Program-made: the position numbers and the translations under genes
In this document: positions 7,225-43,069 of the stretch, one piece after another
How the letters are laid out: every line of letters starts with the position of its first letter
How positions within the stretch are numbered: position 1 is the first letter of the stretch
Source of the DNA: Actinopolymorpha alba DSM 45243
GTDB taxonomy: Bacteria; Actinomycetota; Actinomycetes; Propionibacteriales; Actinopolymorphaceae
Length of the DNA stretch: 47,548 nucleotides
Assembly: GCF_000373925.1 (NCBI RefSeq)
Contig: NZ_KB892739.1
Span: 89,198 to 136,745 of the forward strand
Direction of reading: 5' to 3'
Notes under the pieces: generated by a model
What the model was told of the DNA's origin: nothing
Seen by the model: the letters and a program-made list of their open reading frames with translations, nothing else
Database searches by the model: none

Positions 7225-8384
7225 CCGAGTCAGAACCCGTCAACCGTCCCTTGCGGGCGCTGCAGGTCGGCGCCGGCGGCATGGGGCGCGGTTGGCTGCG
7301 TACGATCCAGGCCTACGACGAGGTCGAGTTGGTCGGCGTCGCCGACCTCAACGTCGCGACCGCGAAAGCCGCCCTTGACGACGCCGGCCTGTCCACCGTC
7401 CCGGTCGCCGAAACCCTGGAGCAGCTAGCCGACGAGGTGGCCGCCGACTTCGTGGTCGACGTGACGATCCCCGAGGCACACCACGCCGTGACGCTGGAAG
7501 CCTTGCGGCGTGGGCTTCCGGTGATCGGTGAGAAGCCGCTGGCGGCGACGCTGGCCGAGGCGCTGGAGCTGGTGGCGGCCTCCCAGGCGTACGACCGGCT
7601 CTTCATGGTCAGCCAGAGCCGTCGGTACAACTCCCAGCAGTTCGAGTTCCGCCGGCAGATCCAGCGGCTCGGCCGGCTCGGCATCCTCGCCGCGGAGTTC
7701 TTCAAGGCACCGCACTTCGGCGGTTTCCGGGACGCGATGGACCACCCGCTCGTGCTCGACATGGCGATCCACGCGTTCGACAGCGCGCGGTTCCTCGTGG
7801 ACGCCGAGCCGGTGGCGGTCTACTGCGAGGAGTACAACCCCGCCTGGAGTTGGTACGCCGGTGATGCTGCCACCACGGCGATCTTCGAGATGAGCGACGG
7901 GGTGCGGTACGTCTACACCGGAAGCTGGTGCAGCGAAGGGCTCGAAACGTCGTGGAACGCCACCTGGCGGGCCAGCGGCGAGCACGGCACGGCGCTCTGG
8001 GACGGCGACAGCCTCCCGACCTTCGAGGTCGTCGAAGGTCGGGAGACCGGGCCAGAAGGCGATCACAACCTGGTGTCTGAGTGGTTCCGGCCCCACACGG
8101 GCTCCGCCCGTCTGGGCCCACCCCCACCTCCGCACCAAGGGATCGCCGGCTCGTTGCGGGAGTTCGTCCACTCCCTGCGCACCGGCAGCACGCCGATGGG
8201 TGCGGCCAGCGACAACGTCATGAGCCTCGCGATGGTGCACGCCGCCATCGAGTCGTCGCGGAGCCGGCAGCGGGTGCTGGTGGCCGACGTCATGGAGAAG
8301 GCGTACGCGCAGGCGCGCGAGCGGGCTACCGGCCCGGTCGCGGACGCCCTCGCGCGGTGGACCAGCCTCACCCCGCCCGGCTGA
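7221..8384 (+). CDS. Gfo/Idh/MocA family NAD(P)-dependent oxidoreductase
   Basis: A 387-residue sugar-type dehydrogenase. The Rossmann motif VGAGGMG is at residues 16-22, the family EKP signature at 104-106 (GEKPLA), and DMAIHAFD at about 178-185 is the active-site histidine region. It starts at GTG 7221 inside the ThuA stop (GTGA overlap). Residues about 287-304 ([17 protein letters not shown]) are encoded by a palindromic DNA repeat also found in the lanthipeptide synthetase gene. This stretch sits between the substrate-domain strands and [12 protein letters not shown] and looks like an insertion that kept the frame. The sugar substrate is unknown. A hairpin terminator follows at 8410. Confidence 0.9.
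8081..8130 (+). repeat. Dispersed palindromic unit, copy 1, in frame within the oxidoreductase gene
   Basis: A 50-bp unit starting GTGGTTCCGGCCCCAC, with a central hairpin CGGGC-TCC-GCCCG and the palindrome TGGGCCCA. It matches the reverse complement of 40319-40368 at 47 of 50 positions. A weaker copy is at 40273-40317. Confidence 0.75.
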
Positions 8385-10485: not shown

Positions 10486-11472
10486 ATGAACCTCGAGCGC
10501 CTCGACGCCTTCAACGAATCCGCCGTCCGCGACGCCATGGCGTTGGACGAAGCCGCCCGCGCGGTCGACGAGCCGCACGACCCGCCAATGAGCCTTCCGT
10601 CGTACACCGGCTCGCTGCGCCACGGCTGGGACGGCGAACCCGGCGAGCGCTGGCTGCTCCGGGACGGCGGGCAGGTGATCGGCGCTCTCGGCGTGCACTT
10701 TCCCCAGCGGGACAACACTCACAAGGCCAGCCTCGGCGTCGTGGTCCATCCCGACCATCGCCGCCAGGGGCTTGGCCGGGCACTCTTCGAGGACGGCCTC
10801 GCCCGGGTCCGAGCCGCCGGCCGGCGGCTCGTCACCAGCGGTTCCCTCGACGCCCCCGCACCGTCCGCGTTCGCCGAGGCGATGGGCTACACGAAGGCCA
10901 GCGTGGAGGTCCAGCGCCGGCAGGACCTCGCCGGTATCGACCACGACCGGGTGGCGAAGCTGCTGGCGGAGGCTCGCGAGGCCGCTCGTGACTACACCCT
11001 GCTGCGCTTTGTCGGGGCAATCCCTGACGAGCTCGTGGACGAGGTGGCCACCCTGACGGGGGCGATCAACGACGCTCCGACCGACGACCTCGACGTCGAG
11101 GACGAGATCTTCGACCGCGCGCGGATCCGGGGCTTTGAGGCCGCCCAGGCCGCCTCGGCCCGCCAGCTCTACCGCCTCGTCGTCCGCCAGGGCACCGATG
11201 GTCCGCTGGCCGGTCACACCATCGTCGGCGCTGCCACCGACATCCCCGCCTGGGCCTGGCAGTACGACACCGCCGTCCTCCGTGAGCACCGCGGGCACCG
11301 GCTCGGGCTGCTCCTCAAGGCGGAGATGATGGCCTGGCTCGCCGAGGCGGAGCCGAGCGTGCGTTGGCTCGACACCTGGAACGCCGAGTCGAACGCCCAC
11401 ATGATCGGTATCAACGAAGCGCTCGGCTACCAGATCGCCGCCCGCCACCTTGGATGGCAGCGCCCGGTCTGA
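10486..11472 (+). CDS. Tandem-domain GNAT family N-acetyltransferase
   Basis: A 328-residue protein with two GNAT folds. The first carries SLGVVVHPDHRRQGLGRALF, the acetyl-CoA pyrophosphate loop (RRQGLG). The second has TAVLREHRGHRLGLLLKAEM (RGHRLG) followed by WLDTWNAESNAHMIGINEALGY, a typical GNAT C-terminal strand-helix. Double-GNAT proteins of this type are common in actinobacteria, and the acceptor is unknown. ATG 10486 is used; a TTG at 10477 is possible. No strong ribosome site is visible. The gene is divergent from the leuA leader and convergent with era. Confidence 0.85.
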   Translation: MNLERLDAFNESAVRDAMALDEAARAVDEPHDPPMSLPSYTGSLRHGWDGEPGERWLLRDGGQVIGALGVHFPQRDNTHKASLGVVVHPDHRRQGLGRALFEDGLARVRAAGRRLVTSGSLDAPAPSAFAEAMGYTKASVEVQRRQDLAGIDHDRVAKLLAEAREAARDYTLLRFVGAIPDELVDEVATLTGAINDAPTDDLDVEDEIFDRARIRGFEAAQAASARQLYRLVVRQGTDGPLAGHTIVGAATDIPAWAWQYDTAVLREHRGHRLGLLLKAEMMAWLAEAEPSVRWLDTWNAESNAHMIGINEALGYQIAARHLGWQRPV

Positions 11473-35615: not shown

Positions 35616-37574
35616 CTACTTCTTGCCGGCGCCCTGGCCGGGACCAGAGTCCGTGGTCGACAGAGCGGCGACGAAGGCTTCCTGCGGCACCTCGACCCGG
35701 CCGACCATCTTCATCCGCTTCTTGCCTTCCTTCTGCTTTTCCAGAAGCTTGCGCTTACGGGTGATGTCGCCGCCGTAGCACTTGGCGAGGACGTCCTTGC
35801 GGATGGCACGGATGCTTTCCCGCGCGATGATCCGGGACCCGATCGCCGCCTGGATGGGCACCTCGAACTGCTGGCGCGGGATGAGCTCCTTGAGCTTCTG
35901 CGCCATCGAGACGCCGTACGAATAGGCCTTGTCCTTGTGCACGATCGCGCTGAACGCGTCCACCGTGTCACCGTGCAGCAGGATGTCGACCTTCACCAGG
36001 TCGGCCGCCTGCTCGCCGGTGGGTTCGTAGTCGAGCGAGGCGTATCCACGCGTGCGGCTCTTCAGCGCGTCGAAGAAGTCGAACACGATCTCGGCGAGCG
36101 GCAGTGTGTAACGCATCTCGACCCGGTCGGTGGAGAGGTAGTCCATACCCTGCAGCTGGCCCCGCCGCGACTGGCACAGCTCCATCACCGCGCCGATGAA
36201 GTCGGCGGGCGTCAGGATCGTCGCGCGTACGACGGGCTCGTGCACCTCCGCGATCTTGCCCTTGGGCATCCCCGACTGCTGCACCGGCGCGCCCGTCCCG
36301 CCGGGGAACTCGCTCGGGTTGGTCACCACAACCTCACCGCCGTCTTCCATGACGACGCGGTAGACGACATTCGGTGCGGTGGAGATGAGGTCGAGGTTGA
36401 ACTCGCGTTCCAGGCGCTCGCGCACGATCTCCATGTGGAGCAACCCGAGGAACCCGCAGCGGAAGCCGAATCCGAGCGCACCGGAGGTTTCTGGTTCGTA
36501 CAGCAACGCCGCGTCGTTGAGCTGCAGTTTGTCGAGCGCGTCGCGCAGGTCGGGATAGTCGTCGCCGTCGACCGGATAGAGCCCGGCGTAAACCATCGGG
36601 TTGGGGTGGCGGTAGCCGGCGAGTGGCGTCTCCGCGCGGTTGCCGGCGAGGGTCACTGTGTCACCGACGCGGGACTGCCGGACTTCCTTCACCCCGGTCA
36701 TGATGTAGCCGACCTCGCCGACGCTGATCGACTCCGACCGGGTGGGTTCCGGTGAGATGACGCCCACCTCGAGGGTCTCGTGGGACGCCTTGGTCGACAT
36801 CATCAGCACCCGCTGGCGGTTGCCGATGGCGCCGTCGACGACCCGGATGTAGGTCACGACGCCGCGGTAGGTGTCGTAGACCGAGTCGAAGATCAGCGCC
36901 CGCGCCGGGGCGTCGGCCTCCCCCTGCGGTGCCGGAACCTGCGCGACGATCTCGTTGAGGAGATGCTCGACCCCTTCACCGGTCTTGGCCGAGACCCGGA
37001 GCACGTCGCTCACGTCGCAGCCGATGATGTGGGCGAGTTCGGCGGCGTACTTGTCCGGCTGCGCCGAGGGCAGGTCGATCTTGTTGAGCACCGGGATGAT
37101 GTGCAGGTCGGCGTCGAGGGCGAGGTAGAGGTTCGCGAGCGTCTGCGCCTCGATGCCCTGCGCCGCGTCGACCAGCAGCACCGCACCCTCGCAGGCGGCC
37201 AGCGACCGGGACACCTCGTAGGTGAAGTCAACGTGGCCGGGGGTGTCGATGAGGTTGAGGATGTACGTCTCGCCCGTGCCGGCGCCGGCGGTGGCCTGCC
37301 AGGGCAACCGGACCGCCTGGCTCTTGATCGTGATGCCGCGCTCGCGCTCGATGTCCATCCGGTCGAGGTACTGCGCCCGCATCGCCCGCTCCTCGACGAC
37401 GCCGGTGAGCTGGAGCATGCGGTCGGCCAGCGTCGACTTGCCGTGGTCGATGTGGGCAATGACGCAGAAATTCCGGATCAGCGCCGGATCGGTGTGGCCG
37501 GGCTGCGGCGCGGATGCGGGAGCGACGGGCACGGATGATCCATTCGGTCTGGTCGGGGGAACGTCGTTCATCAT
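35616..37574 (-). CDS. lepA: Elongation factor 4 (back-translocating GTPase LepA)
   Basis: LepA/EF4 is a ribosome-associated translational GTPase. The 652-residue protein carries an N-terminal Pro/Ser extension, then AHIDHGKST at 40-48 (G1), [12 protein letters not shown] (G2), DTPGHVDF (G3) and VLNKIDLP (G4). The C-terminal LepA-specific part has [23 protein letters not shown] and the tail [26 protein letters not shown], both diagnostic. ATG 37574 and the adjacent ATG 37571 are both possible starts. The divergent neighbour is the lanthipeptide synthetase, whereas rpsT is the usual neighbour. Confidence 0.97.
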
Positions 37575-37766
37575 CCCACGCGCCGCCACCACCCCGCCCG
37601 GCAGCCGAACGCTGACCGGCACAAGAGCGAGCGGCATGAGGCACTCAGGCGAATGTGGCCGTTCCGTTGCCGTGTTGACACGTGCCGTGTCTTGCAGAGC
37701 GCATTGCGCCGTTGGTAGTGATATGCGTACTGATTGTGAGCCGCACCATTGGCAGGGGGGTCAATT

Positions 37767-40700
37767 GTGGGCGGACACCTGTCCTCGTCAGTCCGTGCGG
37801 CCGGCGGCCGAGCGGCCGGCACGAAGGTTTCACCCGCCCAACCAGCCACGTCCGACCCAACCGCCACGTCCGACCAGGCGCATGACGCCGGGAGTTCGCA
37901 CAGACCCGCTGGCGCGAACCCCGACCTGGCGGAGCAGGCGCGAGCGCTCCTTCCCGAAGGGACGTGGGAGTTCCGGGTCGGCCCCCGCTGGTGCGTCGTC
38001 CGCCCACCTGACCGCCCTGAGCGGACGCAGGGCTGGAAGCTGCACCTGTCGGCCACACCGCTGACGGCGCCGCAGGTGCTCGCCCGCGCGATTCCGGTGC
38101 TTCGGGCGTACGGCGTGGCGTTCAAGTTCGCGCCCACCATCGAGGCGGTCCGTCGCCTGACCAGCCGCGACTGCGAGCGCGGCGAGTCGGGCAAGTTCCT
38201 CACGGTCTATCCGAACGACGATCCGCAGGCACCGCGGCTCGCGGCCGACCTCCACGCCGCGACGCAGGGGCTGACCGGCCCACGCATCCTCACCGACCGC
38301 CAGTACCGCCCCGGCAGCGTCGTCCACTACCGGTACGGCGGGTTCGGCGGCGAGCATCGGCTCGACGACGACGGAGTCCGCCGGTACGTGCTGACCGCGC
38401 CCGACGGCAGCCACCTCGAGGACCGGCGCGAGGCGTGGTTCACCCCGCCCACCTGGGCTCCGTCGCCGTTCGGCGCCGACCCGGAGGGTACGCGGAGTCC
38501 GGCGAGCCAGCCCGGCGCACCAGGCCAGGCGGGCGGCGGCCAGCACCCGATCGCCACCACGGCACGTACGTCGAACGCGGTGCTCCTCGGCGGGCGGTTC
38601 GTCGTACACCAGGCGATCCGCCACTCGCCCAAGGGCGGCATCTACCTCGCCACGGATCGCGAACGGGCTATCGAGGTGGTCGTGAAGCATGCCCGTGCCT
38701 ATGTCGAGGCCGACGTGGGAGGGACGGACGTTCGCGACCGGTTACGCCACGAGGCCGCGATGCTGCACCGCCTGGCCGGGCAGGTGCCGGTACCCGCGGT
38801 GGTGGAGTTCTTCCAGCAGGACGGTGACGCGTTCCTCGCCGAGGAACGCCTGGCCGGCCAGCCGTTCCGCCGGTGGGTGCGGACGTCGACCGGAGGCGCG
38901 TCGACGATCCCGACCGGTCAGATCCTGACGATGGCGCGGCACCTGGTCGCGGTCGTGGCCGGCGTGCACTCCGTCGGTGTCGTCCTCCGCGACCTCAGCC
39001 CCGGCAACGTCCTGGTCGCACCGAATGGCGGGCTCGCCCTCGTCGACCTCGAGGCGGCTGCGCCCGCGGGCGTTCCAGCGCCCGTCATCGGGACGCCGGG
39101 CTACCGGGCGCCGGAGAGCCAGCACCCCCGCCAGCCGGTGACCGCGGCGTTCACCGAGGATCTGTGGAGCCTCGGCGGGTTGTTGTTCCTGCTGGCCACT
39201 GCCAACGATCCGGTGCTCGCGGACGACCAACCGGCGGACCGGCCGCTCTCCGACCGCCTCGCCTCCTGGCTGCTTGTGGTGGCGCGGGACAACCTGGCGG
39301 CCCGGCTTCTCACGCCGCCCATCCTCGGACTGCTGGCCATGTCGCCGGACCGTCGCTGGAGCCTCACCCGCGTCGAGAAGTACCTCGCCGAGCTCGCCGA
39401 AGTGGCCAGCCAGCGGGCCGGGTCGGCAGTCCGTGCAACGCCGCTCCCCGACCGCCGGCCCCTTCCCGCCGCGGCCCTCGCCCCGCCGATCCCGCCACCT
39501 TCGGCCGAGCGCCTGTGGACCGACGGGCTCGACTACCTCCTCGCGACCATGACTCCGGACGAGGGAAGCGCCGAGCGGCTCTGGCCCACCCACGCGTTCG
39601 GCCGGCGTACCGATCCCGGCAACGTCCAGCACGGTGCGGCCGGAATCCTCGCGGTCCTGCTCGAGGCTCTCCCCCACGTGACCGATCCCACCCCGCTGAG
39701 GGCCGCCATCCAGCGGGCGGCCGGGTGGCTCGCCGCCCACCAGCCCGCCCGCGACCCGGTCCGCGCAGTACCCGGCCTGTATTTCGGCCGGTCGGGTACG
39801 GCCTGGGCCCTCGCCGACGCGGGCCGCGCCCTCCAGGACCCCGATTTGGTGTCGCGAGCTGTCAACCTGGCCTTGTCACTTCCGGTGGCGTGGCCCAACC
39901 CCGACGTCACCCACGGGCTCGCCGGCGCCGGCCTGGCGCACCTCCACCTGGCCCGCCACACCGGCGACCCGCGGCTTGCCGAACGGGTGAAGGGGTACGC
40001 CGACGCCGTCGTCGCGGCCGCTGACAAGACTGACCTCGGGCCGCTGTGGCCGATACCCGCCGACACACCGTCCCGGCTGGCCGGCGCCCGCCATTACGGT
40101 TTCGCGCACGGGGTCGCCGGCATCGGCTACTTCCTGCTGGCAGCCGGCCGGGCCACGGGTACCCAGGCCTACCTCGACCTCGCCGTCGAGGCCGGGCACA
40201 CCCTGTGCCGGACCGCCACCACTGACGCGCACGGCGCGGCCTGGTGGCCGGTCGGCCCCGACGACCAGCCGCGGGTGTGGGGCCAGGCGGGCGAAGCCCG
40301 GGCAGGAGCGGAACCACAGAGGCGGGGGTGGGCCCAGGCGGGCGGAGCCCGCGTGGGGCCGGAACCACACAGCCGGTTGCCGCACTGGTGCAGCGGGGCG
40401 TCCGGTGTAGGCACGTTCCTGCTCCGCCTGTACGCCGTCACCGACGTGCCGGCGTTCGGTGCCTATGCCGCGGCCGCCGCGGTCGCGGTGCACCGGGCCC
40501 GCTGGCAGGCGGCTCCCGCCACCTGCCACGGGCTCGCCGGCGACGGACAGTACCTCCTCGACGCCGCCGAACTCCTCGCGGAGGACAGCTACCGCGGCTG
40601 GGCCGGCGACCTCGTCGAAGCGATGGCGGTACGCCACTGCCGGCGGGACGGCCGGCTACTCATCCCCGACGAGAGCGGGCAGGCGGTCGTCGCCGACTAC

Positions 40701-40817
40701 CAGGCCGGGGTGGCCGGCGTCATCGCGTTCCTGCAGCGGTTCACCTACGGCGGTCCACGCCCCTGGATGGTCGACGCCTGCCTCACCGAAACCCTCGGAC
40801 GGTCGCGGGCATGCTGA
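37767..40817 (+). CDS. Lanthipeptide synthetase with lyase, kinase and zinc-cyclase domains (LanL / class IV-like)
   Basis: A 1016-residue enzyme predicted to phosphorylate, dehydrate and cyclise a precursor peptide. The phospho-Ser/Thr lyase domain is about 60-250 (WKLHLSATPLTAPQVLARAI). The kinase domain is about 270-560, with Lys307, the catalytic loop LRDLSPGNVL (Asp409, Asn414) and DLE at 427-429 in place of DFG. The LanC-like cyclase is about 590-1010, with WCSGASG (Cys875) and CHGLAG (Cys920, His921), a complete zinc set. Class III LanKC cyclases usually lack these ligands, so it is closer to class IV LanL. GTG 37767 has AGGGGGG upstream. Residues about 836-868 are encoded by two palindromic repeat copies. 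Its stop overlaps the next gene by seven bases. Confidence 0.88.
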   Translation: MGGHLSSSVRAAGGRAAGTKVSPAQPATSDPTATSDQAHDAGSSHRPAGANPDLAEQARALLPEGTWEFRVGPRWCVVRPPDRPERTQGWKLHLSATPLTAPQVLARAIPVLRAYGVAFKFAPTIEAVRRLTSRDCERGESGKFLTVYPNDDPQAPRLAADLHAATQGLTGPRILTDRQYRPGSVVHYRYGGFGGEHRLDDDGVRRYVLTAPDGSHLEDRREAWFTPPTWAPSPFGADPEGTRSPASQPGAPGQAGGGQHPIATTARTSNAVLLGGRFVVHQAIRHSPKGGIYLATDRERAIEVVVKHARAYVEADVGGTDVRDRLRHEAAMLHRLAGQVPVPAVVEFFQQDGDAFLAEERLAGQPFRRWVRTSTGGASTIPTGQILTMARHLVAVVAGVHSVGVVLRDLSPGNVLVAPNGGLALVDLEAAAPAGVPAPVIGTPGYRAPESQHPRQPVTAAFTEDLWSLGGLLFLLATANDPVLADDQPADRPLSDRLASWLLVVARDNLAARLLTPPILGLLAMSPDRRWSLTRVEKYLAELAEVASQRAGSAVRATPLPDRRPLPAAALAPPIPPPSAERLWTDGLDYLLATMTPDEGSAERLWPTHAFGRRTDPGNVQHGAAGILAVLLEALPHVTDPTPLRAAIQRAAGWLAAHQPARDPVRAVPGLYFGRSGTAWALADAGRALQDPDLVSRAVNLALSLPVAWPNPDVTHGLAGAGLAHLHLARHTGDPRLAERVKGYADAVVAAADKTDLGPLWPIPADTPSRLAGARHYGFAHGVAGIGYFLLAAGRATGTQAYLDLAVEAGHTLCRTATTDAHGAAWWPVGPDDQPRVWGQAGEARAGAEPQRRGWAQAGGARVGPEPHSRLPHWCSGASGVGTFLLRLYAVTDVPAFGAYAAAAAVAVHRARWQAAPATCHGLAGDGQYLLDAAELLAEDSYRGWAGDLVEAMAVRHCRRDGRLLIPDESGQAVVADYQAGVAGVIAFLQRFTYGGPRPWMVDACLTETLGRSRAC
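40273..40317 (-). repeat. Dispersed palindromic unit, copy 3 (diverged), within the lanthipeptide synthetase gene
   Basis: The reverse complement matches the unit consensus at about 37 of 45 positions. It adjoins copy 2 with one base between them, in the same orientation, and keeps the reading frame. Confidence 0.6.
40319..40368 (-). repeat. Dispersed palindromic unit, copy 2, within the lanthipeptide synthetase gene
   Basis: A 50-bp unit; its reverse complement equals 8081-8130 at 47 of 50 positions. The central GGGCGGAGCCC and the GGGCCC palindrome are retained. In this orientation it encodes [14 protein letters not shown], whereas copy 1 encodes [14 protein letters not shown]. Confidence 0.75.
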
Positions 40818-41845
40818 CACGTACCAGCTTCCGGTTCTCCCCGAGCGGCGACTACGCCGCATGTGTCACCTCAACCGACCCGTCGACGTGGTACGTCGAA
40901 CGCTGGTCGCTGCGCTCCCCAGCCCCTGACAGTGACGGCGCGGACGACGGTGCCGCCGATGCGCTGGCGCGACCCGAGGCAGTACCCGGGCTGACGCCCA
41001 GCGGTTCACAGACCCGCCTGCTGCCACTCGACGACGGGGCCGTCCTCCTCCATCGCCCCAGGATCGACCGGCACGAGATCGTGCTGGGTCGGCCGAACGA
41101 CGCGACCCACGTGGTGGTCGCCGTGCCGGCGCTCGGACTCCAACTCCTGCCCCATCCCGCCGACGACGTTCTGGCGCTCGTCATCACCACGCAGCCGGAC
41201 CCGTCGTCGACCCTCTGGCTCCTGCGGGTGCGGAGCGGCGCCCTCGAGCCCCTCCTCACCATCCCTGGCCTGGTGGTCGGGGGTACCTGGTTGGACCGGA
41301 ACGCCGGTCGCCTCGCCGTCAACCGCGCCCACCAGGGCCGGCTCAGCTGCGTCGCGATCGATCTGAACACCGGCTCCCTCGCACCCCTCTGGCCGGCCAA
41401 TCCGTCCCTGCGGCTGCTGCTCACCGACACCACGGCTGGTGGCGGGGCCGAAACCACGCTGTTCGTCGTGGCGGACAAGTCCGGCCGGATCGGTTGGGCC
41501 AAGGCGGAGGGTGACGAGCCGCAGTGGCCTTCTGACCTCCAGGCCCGGCACAACCCGTGGCCGCTCGCGATCGACCCAGCCGGAGAACAGATCGCCGTAC
41601 GCCTGGACCACGGTGCGCGTTCCGGACTGCTGCTCTACCGGCGCCACACCGACAGCTCTGTCAACCTTCCCTTACCGGCGGGGACGCTCGGAGGGACCGC
41701 ATCCTGGACCTCTCGCGGGCTGCGGGTGCCGTTCTCAGGTCCTGACCATCCGGCGGGGATCGCCGAGGTCGCCCCGGGCAATGTGCGCATGCTCGTCCCG
41801 CCGGACGATCCCGCCAGCCAGCAGCCGACCGGTGAACTGCCATGA
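40811..41845 (+). CDS. Stand-alone beta-propeller protein of the lanthipeptide locus (S9-peptidase propeller-like, no hydrolase domain)
   Basis: A 344-residue soluble protein without signal peptide or membrane helix. It begins LTRTSFRFSPSGDYAACV and shows repeated blade-like strands, including LQLLPHPADDVLALVIT, LDRNAGRLAVNRAHQGR, and WPLAIDPAGEQIAVRLDHG. This resembles the propeller half of prolyl oligopeptidases or TolB-like proteins. There is no C-terminal alpha/beta hydrolase and no G-x-S-x-G serine. Its ATG overlaps the synthetase stop and its stop overlaps the precursor ATG, so the three genes form one translational unit. It could be a scaffold for the precursor or for the synthetase; no activity can be assigned. 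Confidence 0.7.
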   Translation: MLTRTSFRFSPSGDYAACVTSTDPSTWYVERWSLRSPAPDSDGADDGAADALARPEAVPGLTPSGSQTRLLPLDDGAVLLHRPRIDRHEIVLGRPNDATHVVVAVPALGLQLLPHPADDVLALVITTQPDPSSTLWLLRVRSGALEPLLTIPGLVVGGTWLDRNAGRLAVNRAHQGRLSCVAIDLNTGSLAPLWPANPSLRLLLTDTTAGGGAETTLFVVADKSGRIGWAKAEGDEPQWPSDLQARHNPWPLAIDPAGEQIAVRLDHGARSGLLLYRRHTDSSVNLPLPAGTLGGTASWTSRGLRVPFSGPDHPAGIAEVAPGNVRMLVPPDDPASQQPTGELP

Positions 41846-41973
41846 ACCAACTCATGCTCGATGTCGCCGCGCTCGAGCAGCTTCCCGAGGTGGACTCCAC
41901 GGGACCGCCCGACTACTACTGCGACCCCGCCTCCTGTGCGGCGAGCTGCCTGCTCAGCGTCACCACCAGGTGA
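41842..41973 (+). CDS. Predicted lanthipeptide precursor peptide (LanA)
   Basis: A 43-residue peptide whose ATG overlaps the propeller stop (ATGA). Residues 1-18 (MNQLMLDVAALEQLPEVD) look like a leader: amphipathic and acidic, with an L-x-L-D...LE pattern reminiscent of class III/IV leaders. Residues 19-43 are the probable core: STGPPDYY, then Cys27, Ser31, Cys32, Ser35, Cys36, Ser39, Thr41, Thr42, ending VTTR. Three Cys and seven Ser/Thr could form up to three rings. The length matches SapB-type precursors. The Cys mostly precede their nearest Ser, unlike the usual S-x-x-S-x(3-5)-C arrangement. No export gene is adjacent. Confidence 0.8.
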   Translation: MNQLMLDVAALEQLPEVDSTGPPDYYCDPASCAASCLLSVTTR

Positions 41974-42112: not shown

Positions 42113-43069
42113 GTGACCGCTCCGCACGCACCGGACCTTCCGTACGGCGCCACCGCACAACGCCCCCTGTGGCCCGACCTCCCCGAGGCGATCCAGACAC
42201 GGATCGAGGAACGCCTGGGCGGCAAGGTCGTGGCCGTCGCGAGTCAAGGCTCCGGATTCACGCCCGGGTTCGCGTCCCGCCTGGTCTACGGCAGGGGCCA
42301 GCGCGCGTTCGTCAAGGCCGCATCCGAGACCGCCAGCCCGTCGGTCGCCGACTCCTACCGCGTCGAGGCCCGCACCGTGCCATCGCTGCCGGCCGGCGTT
42401 CCCGCGCCCGCCCTGCGCTGGACGCTGGAGGAGGACGGTTGGGTCGTCCTCTGCTTCGACGACGTACCCGGCCGTCCGCCCATGCGGCCATGGCAGCCGC
42501 GTGAACTCACCGACGTCCTCACCGCTCTGACCGACATGGCGCAGGCGCTGACACCGGCACCGGCTGGCCTCGTCGTACCCGAGATCCGGGACTGGATGGG
42601 CGAGGACTTCGGCTACTGGGACCAACTCCGATCAGAACTCCCTGATCCGGACCGTCAGGTGGCCGAACTCGCCGCGCTGGAGTCCGGCGCGCTCGACGGC
42701 CTGCGAGGGGACGCCGTGGTGCACTGCGACCTCCGTGACGACAACCTGATCATCGGCGACGACGGACGGGTCTGGGTCTGCGACTGGAACTGGCCGAGCC
42801 GCGGCGCCCCGTGGTTCGACCTGCTGACGTTGCTGATCTCCGCGCGGGGAGACGGGTACGACGCGGACGCGTTGTTCGCCGTACACCCGCTCGGCGCCGG
42901 GGCCGACCCTGACGCGGTGGACGCCGTGCTCGCCGGTCTCAGCGGCTACTTCACCGGCGCGTCCCTCCAGCCCGCGGTGTCCGGATCGCCGCACCTGCGT
43001 ACCCACCAGGCCTGGTGCGCGCAGGCCACACTGTCCTGGCTCGCCGTCCGGCGGGGCTGGGTGGGGTGA
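42113..43069 (+). CDS. Phosphotransferase family protein (APH/choline-kinase-like)
   Basis: A 318-residue protein with the aminoglycoside-phosphotransferase fold. The catalytic loop is HCDLRDDNLII (His204, Asp206, Asn211) and the metal-binding loop WVCDWNWPSRGAPWFDL. The N-lobe has RAFVKAAS with the ATP Lys. It starts at GTG 42113 and ends in a GTGA overlap with the next gene. Such proteins phosphorylate antibiotics or small metabolites. Being codirectional and 139 bp after the precursor, it may belong to the lanthipeptide locus; that is not shown. Confidence 0.85.
   Translation: MTAPHAPDLPYGATAQRPLWPDLPEAIQTRIEERLGGKVVAVASQGSGFTPGFASRLVYGRGQRAFVKAASETASPSVADSYRVEARTVPSLPAGVPAPALRWTLEEDGWVVLCFDDVPGRPPMRPWQPRELTDVLTALTDMAQALTPAPAGLVVPEIRDWMGEDFGYWDQLRSELPDPDRQVAELAALESGALDGLRGDAVVHCDLRDDNLIIGDDGRVWVCDWNWPSRGAPWFDLLTLLISARGDGYDADALFAVHPLGAGADPDAVDAVLAGLSGYFTGASLQPAVSGSPHLRTHQAWCAQATLSWLAVRRGWVG

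Follow-up and report, generated by a model that had tools for sequence, protein, structure and literature searches.

A three-gene locus was examined in a stretch of 47,548 nucleotides (nt) from Actinopolymorpha alba DSM 45243 (contig NZ_KB892739.1, positions 89,198 to 136,745); this whole stretch is referred to as the window. The genes lie head to tail on the plus strand: lanL1 at 37767-40817, a gene for a beta-propeller protein (P0002) at 40811-41845 and the precursor gene lanA at 41842-41973. The frames overlap by 7 bases (lanL1/propeller gene) and 4 bases (propeller gene/lanA) and encode products of 1016, 344 and 43 residues, exactly as described in the original prediction, which had been made from the letters of the sequence without database searches. 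The locus is a class IV lanthipeptide operon that is ordinary in its gene order and its enzyme; what sets it apart is that its peptidase is halved, together with the fate of that half within the genus. The score against the LanL model, the quality of the propeller model and a lanA homologue at the matching position in another genome (G007) place the locus beyond chance. The following features were recognized.

37712-37730, plus strand: conserved upstream element TTGGTAGTGATATGCGTAC, from a scan of the own genome and comparison with congeners
37767-40817, plus strand: lanL1, class IV lanthionine synthetase (lyase-kinase-cyclase) of 1016 amino acids, from the LanL model, domains and residues
40266-40367, plus strand: two tandem 51-nt repeat units, in frame within lanL1, from the tandem pair and genome matches
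40811-41845, plus strand: beta-propeller protein P0002 of 344 amino acids, assigned from homology, tree and predicted structure as the propeller part of an S9-type peptidase, with no hydrolase domain
41842-41973, plus strand: lanA, 43-amino-acid precursor MNQLMLDVAALEQLPEVDSTGPPDYYCDPASCAASCLLSVTTR, from its homologue directly after the G007 peptidase gene
42113-43069, plus strand: APH-type phosphotransferase, the next gene downstream (PF01636, 41.0 bits)
35616-37637, minus strand: LepA-type GTPase, the divergent neighbour (LepA_C, 166.8 bits; GTP_EFTU, 183.4 bits)

The lanL1 product scored 989.7 bits against the NCBI LanL model NF038150 (cut-off 650), covered profile positions 1-851 of 851, and carried RamC_N, Pkinase and LANC_like domains. 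The zinc ligands read in the original prediction were confirmed; HWC starts at residue 873, which places the first ligand at Cys 875, and CH stands at 920-921. Residues K91, H93, K307, D409, N414, D427, C875, C920 and H921 were all retained, and 18 positions from K91 to H921, which we take to be catalytic, were identical in LanL1 and six other LanLs (two from G007, one from a Streptomyces plasmid, and those of L114, L133 and L160). LanL1 is a class IV synthetase in which every catalytic residue checked is present. A class III LanKC enzyme would have the same lyase-kinase-cyclase domain order. However, the score of LanL1 against the LanKC model NF038151 was 452.5 bits, under the cut-off of 575, when the LanL cut-off was clearly exceeded, and the zinc ligands are in place; this assignment was ruled out on the model scores, and its probability is close to nil. 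The lanthipeptide system with a precursor that had been proposed was therefore upheld, and its class is given as IV by the LanL score.

The two 51-nt repeat units in lanL1 sit just before the HWC zinc motif, and the second is 80% like the first. The repeat is GC-rich, makes up 17 codons and is dispersed in this genome: the segment 40277-40376 had at least 41 matches, itself included (a lower bound, with 40 of 164 candidates scored), and a further copy lies in the window at 8082-8130. No matching insertion was present in the other six LanLs of alignment A2. In this it is like the palindromic elements that are scattered through genomes and insert into reading frames.

Among the 43 residues of LanA are 3 Cys, 4 Ser and 3 Thr. 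Its plan, an LxxLxxLP leader followed by a C...(S/T)C..(S/T)C.. core, is common to the class IV precursors named by NCBI (VenA and ALQxL types). A homologue with 48% identity (E = 6.2e-6) was found in G007 at the equivalent position, directly after the peptidase gene. The precursor search recovered LanA only in its own genome and in G007; other matches were weak, with E values of 0.03 or worse. Against the VenA model NF038147 (cut-off 35), LanA scored 14.6 bits and the G007 homologue 29.6 bits, both below the threshold. Compared with class IV clusters in which LanL is accompanied by VenA or ALQxL precursors, the window has the same catalytic and zinc residues in LanL and the same downstream position of the precursor; it differs in that its middle peptidase is without a hydrolase domain and in that its precursor falls under the VenA cut-off.

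The middle gene had been predicted to encode an unassigned propeller partner. The fold held up, but the protein can now be assigned. No Pfam or NCBIfam match was obtained in P0002, and a first scan of genome contigs with the propeller as sole query returned no match. P0002 was 42-46% identical, depending on the alignment, to the propeller part of a complete peptidase of G007, and the homologous stretch on the Streptomyces plasmid belongs to a 603-residue protein with a hydrolase, encoded beside lanL. These two complete homologues match Peptidase_S9 (PF00326), with scores of 55.3 and 80.4 bits, and P0002 ends where the propeller ends in both. The predicted structure of P0002 had a mean pLDDT (predicted local distance difference test) of 89.2 and a pTM (predicted template modelling score) of 0.87. 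Structural ranks 1-14 for this model were all peptidase propellers (Z 24.0 to 20.8), with other propellers from 19.9 down. Homology, tree (see below) and structural ranks all point to an S9-type beta-propeller, and the catalytic-Ser domain of the alpha/beta-hydrolase type (Peptidase_S9) is missing from P0002. A search of the window and the five congener stretches for remnants of the hydrolase gave nothing better than E 0.38, and no complete S9 protease was found at the site, in agreement with the prediction that no leader protease is visible there. A hydrolase retained but disrupted by a frameshift was rejected, as no remnant was found nearby. Relocation of the hydrolase within the genome was also rejected: the G007 hydrolase gave five S9-type matches elsewhere in the A. 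alba genome, the best with only 48 bits and 33% identity compared with 218 bits for the second copy of G007, and none of them was lanP-like. As judged from its relatives, P0002 is the propeller domain of an S9-type leader peptidase (lanP) minus the hydrolase half.

S9 leader peptidases of the prolyl oligopeptidase type, such as FlaP, have a propeller homologous to P0002, a homology drawn through the LanL-linked peptidases and not through FlaP itself, and a complete peptidase commonly fills the slot after lanL (see below). In contrast, the window protein is without the catalytic-Ser domain, so it is not a peptidase. DPP6 and DPP10 keep a dead hydrolase domain, whereas this domain is absent altogether from the window propeller. 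PMC4350108 and PMC4873792 describe these two pseudo-peptidases as S9 relatives without enzyme activity that serve as binding subunits. In the open-access literature, which leaves most subscription papers outside, no account of an S9 propeller lacking its hydrolase was found for class IV clusters; this is weak evidence of absence.

The gene order had been called unusual because the precursor comes last. A LanL-alignment scan with one genome per GTDB species yielded 252 confirmed places; the best 80 of these, all of them named loci, were used. Precursors were scored strictly within 3 kb on each side where the sequence allowed (less downstream in L136 and L141, less upstream in L118, L132 and L162) and were found downstream in 60 loci, upstream in 0 and on neither side in 20. 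In 45 loci, lanL was followed at a distance of at most about 0.4 kb by the start of an S9-type peptidase with both propeller and hydrolase, and no propeller was found near lanL in the other 35. Not one of the 80 had a propeller without hydrolase, with L122 counted as complete; there, propeller and hydrolase occupy two separate frames, giving 46 frames in 45 loci. The Ser motif GxSYG was present in 41 of 44 peptidase frames and wanting in the frame read of L156, L170 and L175. A looser scan gave upstream precursor candidates in L127, L156 and L172, each alongside a downstream one; these were taken as chance, as none passed the strict scan. The counts for peptidase (45/80) and precursor (60/80 against 0/80) show that lanL-peptidase-precursor is the normal order and that a precursor in last place is not odd, so the claim of an unusual order was rejected.

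The propeller was then placed among its relatives. When the propeller alignment was searched across the class, 48 of 394 genomes (that of A. alba among them) had a match; together with the family and the plasmid, and with 17 repeats removed from 58 rows, this left 40 loci besides the window. All 12 propeller loci with a LanL in the stretch had the hydrolase, and all 28 that lack a LanL there were without it, making the window the only locus that has a LanL yet no hydrolase. In the tree, the six propellers of the genus fell together with both G007 peptidases (support 97/90), and 23 hydrolase-less propellers from the genus f22:g32, which we take to be probably Streptomyces, formed a separate clade (100/100). 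None of the 200 bootstrap trees (0%) could be explained with only one label change, and a single clade of all hydrolase-less rows was rejected by the approximately unbiased (AU) test (p-AU = 0.0073). On this phylogeny, the propellers without a hydrolase make up two groups that stand apart, and the propellers of this genus are one of the two.

These data bear on the idea that P0002 is a stand-alone TolB-like protein, of the kind common in another actinobacterial genus, which arrived by chance between lanL and lanA. The 23 relatives examined in f22:g32 are without LanL in their stretches, their identity to P0002 is 28-31% over the matched part (12 longer stretches), and Foldseek with the P0002 model ranks TolB high among its matches. 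However, the AU test speaks against one hydrolase-less clade, and the genus propellers are closer (42-46% identity) to the LanL-linked peptidase of G007, with which they have a near-identical start (MLTRTSFRFSP), the same slot and the same 7-base overlap. The f22:g32 proteins are thus related to the window propeller and likewise without hydrolase, but they belong to a separate clade at a different genomic site, with no LanL in the stretches examined. A stand-alone origin was disfavoured by the tree and the AU test and is very improbable. Stand-alone propellers are common in f22:g32 (e.g., L086-L090, L092, L093, L095-L097, L099 and L081); they adjoin a NIF3-type gene in most stretches and, in some genomes, a divergent Peripla_BP_2 gene.

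All five congeners kept the propeller (57-61% identity) between the LepA-type gene and the APH gene, with one extra gene between the LepA-type gene and the propeller in G003. The LepA-type neighbour gave tblastn matches in both congeners searched (L014 and L016) and pairwise identities of 0.90-0.91 in G001, G002, G004 and G005; the APH gene followed the propeller in all five, with 68-72% identity. Neither lanL1 nor the precursor was present at the propeller locus in any of the five. The original prediction had expected precursor and propeller beside orthologous synthetases. This was seen in G007, whose two clusters (L019 and L020) contain the closest LanLs outside the genus and each consist of lanL, a complete peptidase and a precursor, but not in the five congeners, where the propeller stands alone. 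The ratio of nonsynonymous to synonymous substitution rates (dN/dS) for the propeller was 0.18-0.30 when congeners were compared with one another and 0.35-0.38 when they were compared with the window, and that for the adjoining APH gene was 0.21-0.35, ratios by which the congener propeller is under purifying selection. The element TTGGTAGT..TA.G.GTAC, which precedes lanL1 in the window, precedes the propeller in all five congeners. In G003, a 30-codon frame reading VGG...RSRPC to its stop follows a G-run, and lanL1 runs VGG...RSRAC to its stop; the alignment scored 62, and 200 base shuffles reached at most 49. This frame may be a lanL stub, and it is suggestive only. Because the element of lanL1 precedes the propeller in all congeners, and because of the stub-like frame in G003, the change looks like a loss of lanL1.

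The same element was found at only three sites in the A. alba genome at one mismatch or fewer (0 for the reversed control), and two of the three are upstream of the two lanL genes, the second at G000:C2:370307-370325. It precedes lanL2 and its counterparts in G001-G007 with 0-2 mismatches, except that the G007 counterpart has 3. The second LanL (LanL2; L004, G000:C2:358000-376000) is flanked by a Beta-lactamase2-type gene and by a gene of the enolase superfamily (MR_MLE), and no propeller or precursor was found at that locus. LanL2 has Q at both lyase positions, 91 and 93, and G, S and G in place of the kinase residues at 409, 414 and 427, with the zinc ligands retained. LanL2 and its relatives (counterparts L032-L037) formed one clade of seven (100/100) with a cyclase-part dN/dS of 0.115-0.357; in G001, G002, G004 and G005 the match spans only model positions 272-851 (kinase remnant and cyclase). 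The hydrolase-less propeller and LanL2 might be two catalytically stripped lanthipeptide remnants turned into a new, co-regulated function in the genus, in which LanL2 could be a LanC-like thiol-adding enzyme and the propeller its peptide-binding partner. The common rare upstream element, the purifying selection and the persistence of both where lanL1 and the precursor are gone support this proposal, which we nevertheless consider unlikely; G006 has a LanL2-type LanL without the propeller, which counts against an obligate pair.

The losses could also mean that the locus is a relic, with lanL1 impaired by the 102-nt repeat insertion beside the zinc site and the genus in the course of losing class IV biosynthesis. 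The in-frame insertion just before HWC, the absence of lanL1 and lanA from the site in five of five congeners and the lost lyase and kinase residues of LanL2 are all in keeping with it. However, every residue checked in lanL1 is intact and its frame is open, and the stretch that carries the insertion differs by a few residues from one LanL of A2 to another. A relic is doubtful on this evidence.

We favour, with a probability of about 0.7, a class IV operon of lanL1, a remnant of lanP and lanA, in which the propeller has been kept as a non-catalytic protein and from which lanL1 and lanA were lost in the congeners. LanL1 would phosphorylate Ser and Thr of the precursor, eliminate the phosphate and close thioether rings at the zinc site, an activity deduced from its residues. 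The middle gene was presumably once a complete S9-type leader peptidase, as still stands beside lanL in many actinobacteria, and its hydrolase domain was probably lost in the genus before the sampled species split. Since that domain is lost, the propeller would be unable to cut the leader, and its removal would need a peptidase encoded elsewhere, with precedent in other class III and IV producers; two places with Peptidase_M1 were found in the own genome. PMC10885120 implicates S9 peptidases and unclustered leader proteases in classes III and IV, and reports that an AplP-like enzyme outside the cluster acts on the leader of a class IV peptide. The propeller itself would have been retained by selection as a non-catalytic and, from its fold, probably peptide-binding protein. 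The lineage of the five congeners would later have lost lanL1 and lanA, leaving the propeller alone behind the old upstream element of lanL. As the congeners keep it without these two genes, at least part of its job would be independent of lanthipeptides, and the half-protease probably gained such a role.

Alternatively, the propeller may still work within the pathway as part of a split protease, binding the leader or the modified precursor and passing it on to a peptidase, S9 or M1, whose gene lies elsewhere. Its gene overlaps both lanL1 and lanA, the own genome contains the five S9-type hydrolase matches and the two Peptidase_M1 places, and the out-of-cluster AplP-like enzyme described in PMC10885120 offers a class IV example of such leader removal. 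However, the propeller occurs in five of five congeners without lanL1 or lanA, so this is not its only job there. We regard a split protease as less probable than the favoured operon.

Several points weigh against the favoured operon with a retained, non-catalytic propeller. The family sample comprises only 8 genomes. The dN/dS values are pairwise Nei-Gojobori estimates with a dS of about 0.9-1.0 against the window, and those between the genus propellers and the two G007 peptidases (0.53-0.83) are at or near saturation. The G003 stub is short, and the TGA at its end follows of necessity from the ATGCTGA with which the propeller begins; in the same test G001 scored 48 against 47 and the other three congeners fell below their shuffles. 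Hydrolase status was taken for all but 17 of the 49 non-window class-wide matches, and for 11 of the 28 loci without a hydrolase the check for LanL reached no further than about 1.5 kb. The sister position of the L019 peptidase is weak (84/56), and the lead of the peptidase propellers (structural ranks 1-14) over unrelated ones is only about one Z unit.

The loci form a natural series of states, from a complete lanL-peptidase-lanA operon through an operon with a hydrolase-less propeller to the propeller alone, and raise the question of what the propeller of a RiPP (ribosomally synthesized and post-translationally modified peptide) leader peptidase does without the ability to cut. Binding of leader or product would make it a non-catalytic RiPP accessory protein; failing such binding, a biosynthetic protease would have been recruited to another job, apparently twice in actinobacteria. 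For the window, the unassigned partner gene is explained and the oddity of gene order corrected.

The start of lanL1 is a GTG at 37767, with a G-run just 5' of it at 37755-37760. A comparable G-run followed by GTGGG occurs 5' of lanL2 and also in congener G003, and GTG 37767 was favoured over TTG 37749 because of this recurrence. The divergent neighbour was first read by eye as typA; that identity was dropped, as Pfam gives LepA. The prediction of no local exporter agreed with the lack of a match to the ABC exporter membrane domain PF00664 inside the window (other exporter families were not searched), and by this measure the cluster has no adjoining ABC exporter of its own; the sole PF00664 match on the contig of the window lies at C33:18526-19326. 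Six of the class IV loci surveyed (L107, L111, L117, L127, L130 and L134) have up to three differing precursor candidates after the peptidase gene. On the Streptomyces plasmid (L003), the annotated S9 peptidase starts about 240 codons too late, and an unannotated Cys-rich precursor of 72 amino acids (10687-10905) lies between it and an ABC transporter. This precursor passes the ALQxL cut-off, with a score of 23.1 against 19.

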